A DNA stretch of 64,000 nt from Paratractidigestivibacter faecalis (lineage in GTDB: Bacteria > Actinomycetota > Coriobacteriia > Coriobacteriales > Atopobiaceae): the NCBI RefSeq assembly GCF_003416765.1, contig NZ_QSNG01000001.1, forward strand, positions 398,742 through 462,741, in the 5' to 3' direction. Below the pieces are notes generated by a model, which saw nothing but the letters and a program-made list of their open reading frames with translations, was not told where the DNA came from and ran no database searches. The position numbers and the translations under genes are program-made. Positions 14,404-18,310 of the stretch are shown here, piece by piece (position 1 is the stretch's first letter; the number at the start of each line of letters is the position of its first letter).

Positions 14404-14952
14404 CTACGCGTCCAGGGCGTCGGAGTCCTCGCCTGTGGCGTAGGAGTCAAAGAAGACGGTCTTCTGGACGCCCTGGCGCATGCGGTGCAGGCGAGAAGGA
14501 CGGCTGCGCTCGCTGGGATAGCCCAGCGGCATGACGGCCACGATCTTGTACGTCTGCGGGACGCCAAACTGGCGGCGCAGCTCCGAGGGGTCGATGAGGC
14601 CCACCCAGCAGCTGTGGACGCCCAGCTCCTCGGCGGCAAGCGACATGTGGTCTCCCACGATTGCGATGTCTACCATGCCAAAGTCCGCCACGTCGGGGTG
14701 GCGGGCGGCCACGGTCATGTCATAGGCCAGGACCAGCACGACGGGGGCTCCAAAGCGGCAGCGCGTGCACTCGTCCATCTTGGCCAGGGCCTCGTCCCCG
14801 CGCACCACCAGGATGCGCTGCGGCTGCTTGTTCTCGGCCGTGGGGGCCAGCGCTCCCGCGGCAAGGATGGCCTGGAGCTTCTTGTCCTCAACGGGTGCGG
14901 GCGAGAAGCGCCTCTCGGAGTAGCGGTTTGCCATGAGGTCGGTGACGGACAT
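14404..14952 (-). CDS. Nitroreductase-family FMN oxidoreductase
   Basis: 182 residues, a typical length. The N-terminal NRYSERRFSPAPV is the FMN phosphate-binding RxSxRxF signature. AGALAPTAENKQP is the second FMN contact, and the AEELGVHSCWVG segment near residue 115 is conserved in the family. Expected to be a cytoplasmic NAD(P)H-dependent flavoenzyme; the natural substrate is unknown. The start ATG has GAAGGGAGC upstream. It is single and divergent from the cstA leader. Confidence 0.9.
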   Translation of the reverse strand: MSVTDLMANRYSERRFSPAPVEDKKLQAILAAGALAPTAENKQPQRILVVRGDEALAKMDECTRCRFGAPVVLVLAYDMTVAARHPDVADFGMVDIAIVGDHMSLAAEELGVHSCWVGLIDPSELRRQFGVPQTYKIVAVMPLGYPSERSRPSRLHRMRQGVQKTVFFDSYATGEDSDALDA

Positions 14953-15082
14953 GGGGCTCCCTTCATAGTTTTGCCTGCAAGCAAATCTTACCTGTCTTGC
15001 CTATCTATCCTCGGCAGGCGGCTGGTTCTTCTCGCCAGACGGAGCTATTCAATGTTACTAGCGTGTTAGGTGTTGGTTATTG

Positions 15083-15313
15083 TGGGCGGCTCGTGAAGGT
15101 TGCGAGTTCACTATGTGACTTGTCCACAGGAGGTGCTTCGGCACCACGGCTTATGGAGTCTTCAACAACATGACCGCCCAGCTATCCATTATCAGCGTTG
15201 TAATTATCTGATACGGGTTGGCACATACAGCCAGCCCGGAAGATACGGGCGGCTGATAAGCGCGAATGCAGCGGGGCCGCTTGGGAGCAAAACCCAAACG
15301 GCCCCGCTTTTTT
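15083..15313 (+). ncRNA. Structured leader upstream of cstA, candidate riboswitch or attenuator
   Basis: About 230 bases of non-coding sequence with several compatible stems. A long-range stem TGGGCGG (15083-15089) with CCGCCCA (15174-15180) encloses two hairpins: CTCG/CGAG, and GGTGC-TTCG-GCACC at 15132-15145. A second domain is closed by TTATCAGC (15189-15196) with GCTGATAA (15252-15259) and contains GGGTTGGC with GCCAGCCC. A strong terminator follows directly, 31 bases before the cstA start. Aptamer-like stems plus a terminator in the leader fit regulation by transcription attenuation. I do not recognise it as a T-box, SAM, TPP, lysine, glycine, cobalamin or cyclic-dinucleotide class. Confidence 0.5.
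15270..15313 (+). terminator. Leader terminator upstream of cstA
   Basis: AGCGGGGCCG pairs with CGGCCCCGCT, extended by TTGGG with CCCAA across one mismatch. The loop is AGCAAAA and seven T follow. Because it lies between the structured leader and the gene, it is a conditional terminator candidate. Confidence 0.9.
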
Positions 15314-15344
15314 GTTGAAGGCACCTGAGGAGGAAAGAAAGTCA

Positions 15345-17150
15345 ATGAACGGAATCGTACTGATGCTCGTCGCGGCGGTTGTTCTCGCCTGCGGCTACCT
15401 GCTCTACGGCAGGTGGCTGTCAAACAAGTGGGGCGTTGACGCCAAGACTCTCACCCCCGCCCGCCGCATGGAGGATGGCAAGAGCTTCTCGCCCGCCTCC
15501 GCCTTCACCGTGTTCTCCCACCAGTTCAGCTCCATCTGCGGCGCCGGCCCCGTCACGGGCACCATCGTCGCCATGGCCTTTGGCTGGCTGCCCGTCGTCC
15601 TCTGGGTCCTCATCGGCGGCATCTTCTTCGGCGCCGTCCACGACTTCGGCGCCCTCTACGCTTCCATGAAGAACAACGGCAAGTCCCTTGCCCAGCTAAT
15701 CGAGAAGTACATCGGCAAGACCGGCCGTCGCCTCTTCCTGATCTTCTCCTGGCTGTTCTGCATCATCGTCATCGCCGCCTTCACCTCCATGGTCTGCGGC
15801 ACCTTCAAGTACACCCCGGCCGAGGCGGGCGGCATTGACTTTGCCAAGTCCTACGCCGCTGGCTGCGCCGGCACCATCTCCATCCTCTTCACCTTTGTGG
15901 CCATTGCCTTCGGCTGGGCCCAGCGCAAGTTCAACCTTGATGGCGCCAAGGAGTTCGTCGTTGCCGTCGTGGCCATCGTGCTGATGTTTGCCGTCGGCAT
16001 GCAGTTCCCGCTCTACCTTGACCTCAACCAGTGGATTGCCGTCGTCATGGTTTACCTGGTCTTTGCCGGCGCCATGCCGATCCAGACCCTCAAGCAGCCG
16101 CGTGACTACCTCACCACCATCATGATGGTCGTCATGATCGTCTGCGCCGTGCTGGGCATCGTCGTCCTGGGCGTTAACGGCCAGGCCACCATCACGGCCC
16201 CCATGTTCACCGGCTTCTCCACCAAGTCCGGCATGATGTTCCCGGTGCTCTTTGTCTCCGTCGCCTGCGGCGCCCTCTCCGGCTTCCACAGCCTGGTCTC
16301 CTCCAGCACCTCCTCCAAGCAGGTCTCCAACGAGACCGACGCCGTCAAGGTCGGCTATGGTGCCATGGTCCTGGAGTCCTTCGTGGGCGTCCTCGCCATC
16401 ATCATCGCTGGCATCATGTTCTCTGACATGAACACCGCCGGCACCGGCGCCCTCAACAACGGTGTCGCTTCCACCCCGTTCCAGATCTTCGCCGCCGGCA
16501 TCGCCCGCGGCATGCAGGCCTTCGGCGTCAACGGCACCGTCGCCACCGTGTTCATGACCATGAACGTGTCTGCCCTTGCTCTGACCTCCCTTGACGCCGT
16601 GGCCCGCATCGCCCGCACGTCCTTCTCCGAGTTCTTCGCCAAGTCCAACGACGCCCTGGCTATCGAGGACAAGTCCGGCGCCATGAAGGTCCTGGGCAAC
16701 CCCTGGTTTGCCACCCTCGTGACCCTTCTCCCGGGCCTGGCCCTCACCTTCGGCGGCTACCTGGCCATCTGGCCGCTCTTCGGCGCCTCCAATCAGCTCC
16801 TCGGCGGCATGACCATGATCACCCTTGCCGTCTTCTGCAAGTGCACCGGCCGCAAGGGCGCCATGCTCTACGTGCCCGTCGCCTTCCTGCTCTGCTGCAC
16901 CTTCACCTCCCTGGTCCAGAGCATCATGGGCTGTGTCACCGCCCTGTCTGCCGGCACCGCCGCCTCCGTCTTCAACTCCGTGCTGCAGCTCGTCTTTGCC
17001 ATCCTGCTCGTGGTCCTCGGCCTCATCGTTGCCGTGAACTGCCTGCGCGAGCTGTTCACCAAGGAGTCCGGCTCCCTGCCCGACGAGGAGCCCGAGTGGT
17101 CCGAGCTCGGCCGCAAGAACTGCGGCGTCGAGGCCCCCGAGACCAAGTAG
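15345..17150 (+). CDS. cstA: Carbon starvation protein CstA family transporter
   Basis: 601-residue polytopic membrane protein, about 16 hydrophobic segments from the N-terminal helix onward. The family hallmark region SPASAFTVFSHQFSSICGAGPVTG is near residues 50-73, followed by GGIFFGAVHDFGALYAS and later SSTSSKQVSNETDA. CstA proteins import pyruvate or peptides in E. coli and relatives; which substrate applies here is not visible. The ATG at 15345 has TGAGGAGG upstream and follows the leader terminator. The end has a strong bidirectional terminator. The neighbouring peptide importer makes a nutrient-scavenging role plausible but does not identify the substrate. Confidence 0.94.
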   Translation: MNGIVLMLVAAVVLACGYLLYGRWLSNKWGVDAKTLTPARRMEDGKSFSPASAFTVFSHQFSSICGAGPVTGTIVAMAFGWLPVVLWVLIGGIFFGAVHDFGALYASMKNNGKSLAQLIEKYIGKTGRRLFLIFSWLFCIIVIAAFTSMVCGTFKYTPAEAGGIDFAKSYAAGCAGTISILFTFVAIAFGWAQRKFNLDGAKEFVVAVVAIVLMFAVGMQFPLYLDLNQWIAVVMVYLVFAGAMPIQTLKQPRDYLTTIMMVVMIVCAVLGIVVLGVNGQATITAPMFTGFSTKSGMMFPVLFVSVACGALSGFHSLVSSSTSSKQVSNETDAVKVGYGAMVLESFVGVLAIIIAGIMFSDMNTAGTGALNNGVASTPFQIFAAGIARGMQAFGVNGTVATVFMTMNVSALALTSLDAVARIARTSFSEFFAKSNDALAIEDKSGAMKVLGNPWFATLVTLLPGLALTFGGYLAIWPLFGASNQLLGGMTMITLAVFCKCTGRKGAMLYVPVAFLLCCTFTSLVQSIMGCVTALSAGTAASVFNSVLQLVFAILLVVLGLIVAVNCLRELFTKESGSLPDEEPEWSELGRKNCGVEAPETK

Positions 17151-17253: not shown

Positions 17254-17964
17254 CTACACGATGACGGGAATCCTGTCGGCGGGCGAGGCGCCTGCGTCGG
17301 CGACCTCGCGCGGATTCCTCTTGAGGAGGGCACGGGCCTTCTTCTCTTCTGGGAAGACCAGTGCCAGATGCAGGTGGAAGCGGCTGTTGTGCGAGGGCTC
17401 GATGAAGTGCGTGAGCTCGTGCGCCACGACGTACTCGAGGCAGGTGGGCGGGTAGGCGGCCAGGCGGATGTTGATGCTTATGTGGCCGGTTGACGGCGTG
17501 CAGGATCCCCACCTCGAGGTGAGGTCACGCAGGCGCCAGGCGGTCGCATGCTGGCCCGTCGCTTCCTCGTAGGTCTTGATGAGGGCTGGGAGGGCCTGCG
17601 CGACTTCCCTGTGATACAGCTCGTCGACTGCAAGGTCGCAGGGAAGCTCGACGAGCCTTCCCCAGAGGGGAACGAGCCCGTCGTCGGGAGCCTCGGGCTG
17701 CTTCTCGAGCGCCTGGGCAATGCTCCTCTTCAGCCAGTAGCGGTGCTTGTCGAGGAATGCCTGCGCCTTCTGCCGGTTGGTCTGCCAGGGGATGCTCATG
17801 ACGGCGGTTCCGTCTGACCTGACGCGTAGGTTGAAGTTCTTGACCGCCTTGCGCGTGACGTGGACGGTTATCGTGCCGGTCGTCAGGTCGTAGGATGGGT
17901 CCCACTTAACGGGACGCTCGCGCAGAAGGTACTTTGGTGTGAGTCGACCGTTGCCTCGTTGCAT
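17254..17964 (-). CDS. YgjP/DUF45-type zinc metallopeptidase
   Basis: About 236 residues. The zinc site is HELTHFIEPSHNSRFH near the C-terminus: HExxH plus a third His. SRWGSCTPSTGHISINIRL just before it is the hallmark of the YgjP-like (DUF45/WLM-related) group. No signal peptide or membrane helix, so probably cytoplasmic. The family role is poorly known. I prefer the ATG at 17964 (GAAGGCGAG upstream) to the in-frame ATG at 18036, which has no ribosome site and lies in AT-rich sequence. It is convergent with cstA. Confidence 0.85.
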   Translation of the reverse strand: MQRGNGRLTPKYLLRERPVKWDPSYDLTTGTITVHVTRKAVKNFNLRVRSDGTAVMSIPWQTNRQKAQAFLDKHRYWLKRSIAQALEKQPEAPDDGLVPLWGRLVELPCDLAVDELYHREVAQALPALIKTYEEATGQHATAWRLRDLTSRWGSCTPSTGHISINIRLAAYPPTCLEYVVAHELTHFIEPSHNSRFHLHLALVFPEEKKARALLKRNPREVADAGASPADRIPVIV

Positions 17965-18310
17965 CAAACTCGCCTTCGTGTGAGTGGGGTTTGAGGCCCC
18001 AAGGGTAACGGCACGCCATTTTATGCAATATCCCATTTTGGTATCTGGGAAAACGTCCCGTTTTATTCATTAGAATTATGATAACTGATGGTTGCCACCA
18101 AAATGGACTCGCACGAAGGCCACTTTGGTGCACTCGACTTAAAAATCCTCGCACGAAGGGGACTTCTGCGCAAAGGTCGGCCCGGAACGCTCGCAAATGG
18201 CGGAACAAATGCTATCTGCGATGTAGCATTTCTGTCTTCCATGCGGCGTGCGACAGGTTGCGGCAGTCCGCGGATACACTCGTGACGTCAACCGAGCGAA
18301 GGGAATCAAA
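17965..18310. other. Gene-free AT-richer region with partial repeats
   Basis: I see no gene. The stretch around 18060-18090 is clearly AT-rich and may hold divergent promoters. CTCGCACGAAGG occurs at 18108-18119 and 18148-18159, with a near-complement at 17973-17984. About 24 bases at 18114-18138 also resemble 17925-17948 inside the metallopeptidase gene. These look like a local duplication or operator-like repeats. Confidence 0.4.

Follow-up and report, generated by a model that had tools for sequence, protein, structure and literature searches.

Why a strong terminator should stand between a long structured leader and its gene is the question raised by the cstA locus of the window, by which we mean the whole 64,000-nucleotide stretch of Paratractidigestivibacter faecalis DNA that was analysed. 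The regulated gene lies on the forward strand at 15345–17150, with its start codon ATG at 15345, and was assigned as cstA by PF02554 (E 3.2e-141); the NCBIfam pyruvate/proton symporter CstA model scored it at 184 bits, far under the cut-off of 1188. The neighbouring genes, both on the reverse strand, encode a nitroreductase-family protein (14404–14952) and a YgjP-like metallopeptidase (17254–18036). The original prediction had described the leader as a candidate riboswitch or attenuator that matched no known class, with a TTCG-capped hairpin, two domains that are each closed by a stem, and a strong terminator ending 31 bases before cstA. Folding of 15075–15320 reproduced both domains where they had been placed (15083–15180 and 15189–15259) and contained the hairpin (GGTGC-TTCG-GCACC), and the T-run of the terminator ends at 15313, as the proposed distance demands. 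The minimum free energy of this region was −108.8 kcal/mol; 200 dinucleotide shuffles averaged −80.3 (sd 4.7), which corresponds to z −6.0, and folding of 15075–15262, with the terminator removed, still gave z −4.2. The lack of a match to known classes was likewise reproduced, with 0 Rfam 15 matches at gathering score for the window and 15 relatives; with E up to 10 there was nothing convincing, the best being CrfA on the opposite strand (25.7 bits, cut-off 38). A consensus scan of the window for promoters and terminators returned 0 promoters and 3 terminator-like sites; the cstA-leader terminator, absent from that scan, is plain in both sequence and fold. Comparison with related genomes, described below, indicates that the leader is very probably a ribosome-mediated transcription attenuator that would sense the charging of Ile and Leu tRNAs.

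The comparison separated the two domains. A DNA search of 395 Coriobacteriales genomes with 15070–15262 found matches in 38 genomes besides the window's own at E ≤3.8e-5, nearly all of which cover query positions ~108–193, corresponding to about 15177–15262 of the window, at 72–90% identity; weaker rows of the search look like chance. Those matches that we inspected in relatives lie directly upstream of a terminator and a cstA gene. Domain 1, the structured 5′ leader at 15083–15169 (forward strand), the 3′ strand of which extends into the first part of an ORF described below, had no DNA-similarity matches in relatives beyond the same genus among the 395 genomes. In a relative of that genus (L048), the sequence aligns across domain 1 but adopts a different fold: the closing helix is not formed, and the inner hairpin alone is retained, via changed pairs (GGTGC/GCACC to GGCGC/GCGCC). 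This comparison ruled out domain 1 as a conserved aptamer. The conserved part of the element is 15170–15313, and the expected conservation of stems in relatives was borne out, with covariation, for the second domain and failed for the first.

At the start of the conserved part is a short ORF on the forward strand (15170–15211) encoding the leader peptide MTAQLSIISVVII, for which homologous ORFs, gaps in threes and codon bias are the evidence. It was missed by the original prediction, although the 5′ strand of the second domain sits inside it. Its codons are ATG ACC GCC CAG CTA TCC ATT ATC AGC GTT GTA ATT ATC TGA, placing CTA at 15182–15184, Ile codons at 15188–15193 and 15203–15208, and the stop TGA at 15209–15211. 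A Shine-Dalgarno-like GGAG (15155–15158, forward strand) is located 11 bases 5′ of the ATG, and in relatives the ATG and Shine-Dalgarno sequence open the conserved block. Using a script that picked short ORFs ending at a conserved CGGG with an Ile+Leu+Val content of at least 30%, we obtained an ORF rich in branched-chain amino acids (BCAA) in 65 cstA leaders, of which 44 were left after collapsing near-identical ones; L042 and L060 were dropped from the leader set as duplicates. Example peptides from relatives are MRTQLLAIISEIIS, MNAHCLSIAIEIIA, MLIGLLDMLVLLIS, MGVSTLAEAIIII and MFLAELAIIAIVI, and the ORF of L089, MYKRQLSIISAVIIT, was skipped by the script and spotted by eye. An ORF that has a ribosome binding site and looks translated therefore stands 5′ of the terminator, as in ribosome-mediated attenuators. 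Two leaders of a single genus (L095 and L114; f3, genus g43) lack the usual stop and end in KRG nine bases on, within the downstream segment A, so that a ribosome there would cover more of that segment.

The original prediction required that the transcript should not start downstream of 15259. In 35 of the 44 cstA leaders, a TTGAC-type promoter with a −10 element, ~40–80 bases 5′ of the ORF, places the start upstream of the element in those relatives; for the window itself, none was assigned. The hexamers of these promoter-like sites are spaced by 16–18, and in many of them GCTAAAGCG lies between the hexamers, where it could be a regulator site.

Alignment gaps and codon use both bear on translation of the ORF. 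In a first count, 60 of 60 gaps in the ORFs were multiples of three, a result that was partly forced because the ORFs had been cut from start to stop, and an ORF-independent count was made instead. Over the 48 bases 5′ of segment A, 93 of 96 gap runs were multiples of three, compared to 11 of 111 in the 5′-UTR control of the same leaders; extended to 60 bases, a stretch that passes beyond the ORF start, the count was 86 of 122. Leu is encoded by CTA in 47 of 76 leader codons versus 1 of 1385 in 32 cstA ORFs of relatives, and CTA accounts for 1.7% of Leu codons in 39 long ORFs of the window. ATT likewise makes up 116 of 170 leader Ile codons versus 25 of 850 in the same 32 cstA ORFs. Since codons for Glu (all 22 are GAG) and Gln (28 of 29 are CAG) retain a third-position G, the use of CTA and ATT in the leaders is not a general A+T bias. 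CTA is present in 41 of the 44 cstA leaders, the three exceptions being one genus (f4, g47). The fraction of Ile in the leader ORFs is 0.307, compared to 0.036 in the 39 long window ORFs, and their BCAA content is 49%, a figure raised in part by the 30% picking threshold. Codons for the amino acids that would be sensed are thus enriched in the leader ORF. The Ile codons that adjoin the stop are too near it for stalling there to be told from termination.

Downstream of the ORF, the same short segments are complementary to more than one partner. Segment A (CGGGTTGGC, 15214–15222) pairs with segment B (GCCAGCCCG, 15230–15238), B can pair with A or with segment C (CGGGCGGCT, 15246–15254), and C has two possible partners, B and the 5′ arm of the intrinsic terminator (15270–15313; 5′ arm 15270–15285, 3′ arm 15293–15308, T-run to 15313), all on the forward strand. 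In 40 of 44 leaders, 2 bases separate the stop codon from segment A. Covariation in A:B and the terminator is strong: across the 44 leaders, the two helices together have 94.6% of cells paired and show changes on both sides in 13 of 20 pairs. None of 500 shuffles was as high, and slid partners reached at most 47.0%, although related sequences beat shuffles easily and covariation counts here are support, not proof. The terminator by itself contributes 10 stem pairs, 6 of them changed on both sides, with 95.9% of cells paired. In the cstA leaders, 90.6% of the B:C cells are paired and 2 B:C pairs have changes on both sides; on a wider alignment of leaders from several genes, this helix was no better than shuffles. 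C and the terminator 5′ arm are paired in 98.4% of cells in the 44 cstA leaders with 0 changes on both sides, that is, conserved without covariation. In 42 leaders of several genes, 94.9% of cells are paired and 3 of 7 pairs are changed on both sides; none of 500 shuffles equalled the fraction of cells paired or the covariation score, 40 equalled the pair count, and the slid control gave at most 61.8%. The central pair of this helix is G-C in 31, A-U in 6 and G-U in 5 of these leaders, and across 62 leaders each of the 6 with an A in C carries a T in the arm. An intrinsic terminator lies between leader and gene throughout, except that one leader before a symporter gene of the major facilitator superfamily (MFS; L168) has no T-run.

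Energy-based comparisons of the proposed antiterminator were less telling. The C:arm duplex was matched by at most 5% of mononucleotide shuffles in 27 of 62 leaders, a modest result, and a swap test was likewise modest, with segments C of MFS leaders at −18.3 kcal/mol with their own arms versus −13.7 with cstA arms. When the transcript was truncated to mimic a stalled ribosome, the minimum-energy fold contained A:B together with C:arm in 51 of 62 leaders, but 354 of 620 dinucleotide-shuffled-arm controls gave the same, so that this test is a weak one. Neither a strict two-state switch (24 of 62 real leaders versus 221 of 620 dinucleotide-shuffled-arm controls) nor a partition-function switch score (39 of 44 leaders versus 588 of 880 shuffled controls) was discriminating. 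Antitermination by this route must be kinetic, since the C:arm helix is much less stable than the terminator.

The ORF itself also takes part in the fold. Within the ORF lies TTATCAGC (15189–15196, forward strand), which supplies the 5′ strand of the closing stem and whose partner in a ribosome-free transcript is GCTGATAA at 15252–15259; in L048, the stem is shifted to other codons (CGCAGAGC:GGCTCTGCG). A stem of at least 5 pairs between the ORF and a stretch behind C is predicted for the ribosome-free fold of 24 of 62 leaders, the window among them, and in several other leaders the ORF pairs with A. Both pairings would be expected to favour termination when the ORF is untranslated.

These elements suggest the following mechanism. 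A ribosome would translate the Ile/Leu-rich leader ORF close behind RNA polymerase. With charged Ile- and Leu-tRNA plentiful, it would reach the stop and cover the adjacent segment A, leaving B to pair with C; the terminator would then form, and cstA would remain untranscribed. A ribosome stalled on CTA or on the middle Ile codons would instead allow A:B to pair and set C free, and free C would pair with the terminator 5′ arm (in the window, CGGGCGGCU with GGCCGCUUG), so that transcription could continue into cstA. Without translation, pairing of the ORF with the flank of C or with A would again tip the balance towards termination. Judged from sequence comparison, conditional read-through of the terminator is well supported, and the switch probably turns cstA on when branched-chain amino acids are scarce, in many gut Coriobacteriales.

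The other half of the original prediction, a metabolite riboswitch whose terminator would be governed by a ligand bound to both domains, could draw on the strong folding, on the terminator ahead of the gene, and on the lack of an Rfam match, which makes a new class conceivable. We consider it very unlikely, as what relatives conserve is a reading frame whose gaps come in threes and whose rare codons are selected, followed by competing hairpins, the fold of the first domain is not kept in L048, and our alignment (A1) has no strongly conserved unpaired stretches outside the codons, A, B, C and the terminator. The accompanying suggestion of an amino-acid signal was near the mark if what is sensed, by way of a ribosome, is the charging of Ile and Leu tRNAs. 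A terminator that acts constitutively behind an unrelated leader, with partial read-through giving low basal cstA and the ORF incidental, would fit the very high stability of the hairpin (about −30 kcal/mol); compensated helices, gaps in threes, codon selection and recurrence of the arrangement before other genes make this reading scarcely credible.

Translation could also be sensed for another purpose, with ribosome inhibition or general stress rather than amino-acid supply as the signal. Leader ORFs that sense ribosome-targeting antibiotics have been published (PMC12121999), but the Ile content of 31% and the rare CTA indicate specific codons, and the genes behind the leader are metabolite symporters and metabolic enzymes rather than drug-resistance genes, which renders this explanation improbable. 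An attenuator that would respond to Ile/Leu-tRNA charging is our preferred explanation.

We searched the 395 Coriobacteriales genomes with a covariance model of the element (R2), which gave 94 matches at E ≤7.5e-9 in 88 genomes, followed by a gap to two weak ones (G168:C1:157033 and G349:C2; E 3e-4 and 7e-4) that were set aside, the first lying within coding-looking sequence. Assigned to genes by reading or by coordinates, 76 of the strong matches precede cstA, 12 precede MHS-type MFS symporters and 3 precede 2-oxo-acid-type enzymes, while the 3 others are one with no gene identified behind it (L157) and two at contig ends (L152, L186). The symporter genes score 348–401 bits with TIGR00883 (metabolite/H+ symporter), somewhat under its cut-off of 443. 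Two of the enzyme leaders (L154 and L156) precede 2-oxopent-4-enoate-hydratase-like genes (E 2e-16 and 1e-18, below equivalog cut-offs), followed in L156 by a ketopantoate-reductase-type gene; the third (L155) precedes a ketopantoate-reductase-type gene with TIGR00745 above cut-off. All 18 of 18 further loci that we examined have an Ile-rich ORF and the order A-B-C-terminator. None of the non-cstA leaders contains CTA, which makes Ile the common codon, while Leu seems special to cstA. The element was found in 0 of 36 genomes from other orders of the class, and the window's own genome has no second copy, a single match at E 4.2 being noise.

The leader is present at 30 of 62 named cstA loci (one of the named loci, L259, is a fragment), comprising 25 from Collinsella, L199, L217, L226 (Parafannyhessea umbonata), L231 and L239 (Olsenella sp.). 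When 62 CstA proteins were placed in a tree, that of the window belonged to a 28-row clade (support 100/99) in which every row has the leader, and three label changes suffice to explain leader presence over the whole tree.

Several described attenuators resemble this leader in part. The Corynebacterium ilvBNC attenuator (peptide MTIIRLVVVTARRLP; ilvB-II motif) has, in the parts of PMC11857589 and PMC10272879 that were covered, a short BCAA-rich leader ORF in an actinobacterial host and terminator, antiterminator and anti-antiterminator hairpins. As described there, it precedes ilvB, a gene of BCAA synthesis, and its first hairpin contains the ORF, which begins one base from the transcript start. 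The cstA-type leader, by contrast, precedes transporters or 2-oxo-acid enzymes, and its ORF precedes the hairpins and has a Shine-Dalgarno sequence. An ilvB-II/ilvL identity was considered and rejected, the strong matches being mainly upstream of cstA rather than ilvB. No strong match precedes ilvB among the resolved loci, and a search of five ilv loci for a leader of the cstA kind gave one weak candidate (L196) and none in the other four. Corynebacterium and Streptomyces trp attenuators have an invariant complementary triple, gGCC-rGCy-GGCC, common to terminator and antiterminator (PMC1262725, in the sections covered). The near-invariant triple in competing helices is shared here (B GCC(A)GCCC, C GGGCGGC, arm GCCGY); the codons and genes are different, and the cstA-type leader has one more competing helix. 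The ilv operon of S. aureus, a synthesis operon in another phylum, has a leucine-rich attenuator peptide (PMC5794164) that, by its description, also carries BCAA codons. The covered parts of PMC1262725, which predicts attenuators in Actinobacteria, make no mention of cstA, and open-licence literature on cstA, Coriobacteriia or Collinsella leader peptides, riboswitches and attenuation, at the level of listings, contains no description of the element. The cstA leader would thus add a leader-peptide attenuator aimed at transporters rather than synthesis genes, with a covariance model for finding more.

E. coli CstA is a pyruvate importer (PMC7730263), and both peptides and pyruvate have been proposed as substrates in E. 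coli and Salmonella; outside these organisms the substrate is unsettled, and a switch that reads Ile and Leu links the transporter to BCAA nutrition. ilvC is present in 19 of 30 leader-bearing genomes (in G051 by partial match) and absent from 11, compared to 8 of 10 present in other genomes. Since 11 of 30 genomes keep the leader without ilvC, the switch is not tied to BCAA synthesis. The genes behind the leader may have 2-oxo acids in common as substrates. Tentatively, we propose a previously unlisted Coriobacteriales regulon in which charging of Ile tRNA, and before cstA also Leu tRNA, would control how 2-oxo acids or peptides are taken up and turned over by CstA, MHS-type symporters and the enzymes resembling 2-oxopentenoate hydratase and ketopantoate reductase. 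Since genomes lacking ilvC retain the switch, CstA in those genomes would acquire BCAA themselves, in the form of peptides or branched-chain 2-oxo acids, and not pyruvate for use as a precursor; this wider proposal is possible but doubtful. The regulation and the CstA substrate are both open to direct test in common gut species, Collinsella aerofaciens being one example.

Two further observations concern the loci without cstA. At L154 (G059:C1:441100-444600) and L190, the leader stands before an operon with a 2-oxopent-4-enoate-hydratase-like gene that also contains genes resembling a molybdopterin-dehydrogenase FAD subunit and large subunit as well as ABC-permease-like genes. Genome G175 has three copies of the leader, one before cstA and two before ketopantoate-reductase-type loci (L155 and L156), the products of which, we presume, may be branched-chain 2-oxo-acid reductases.
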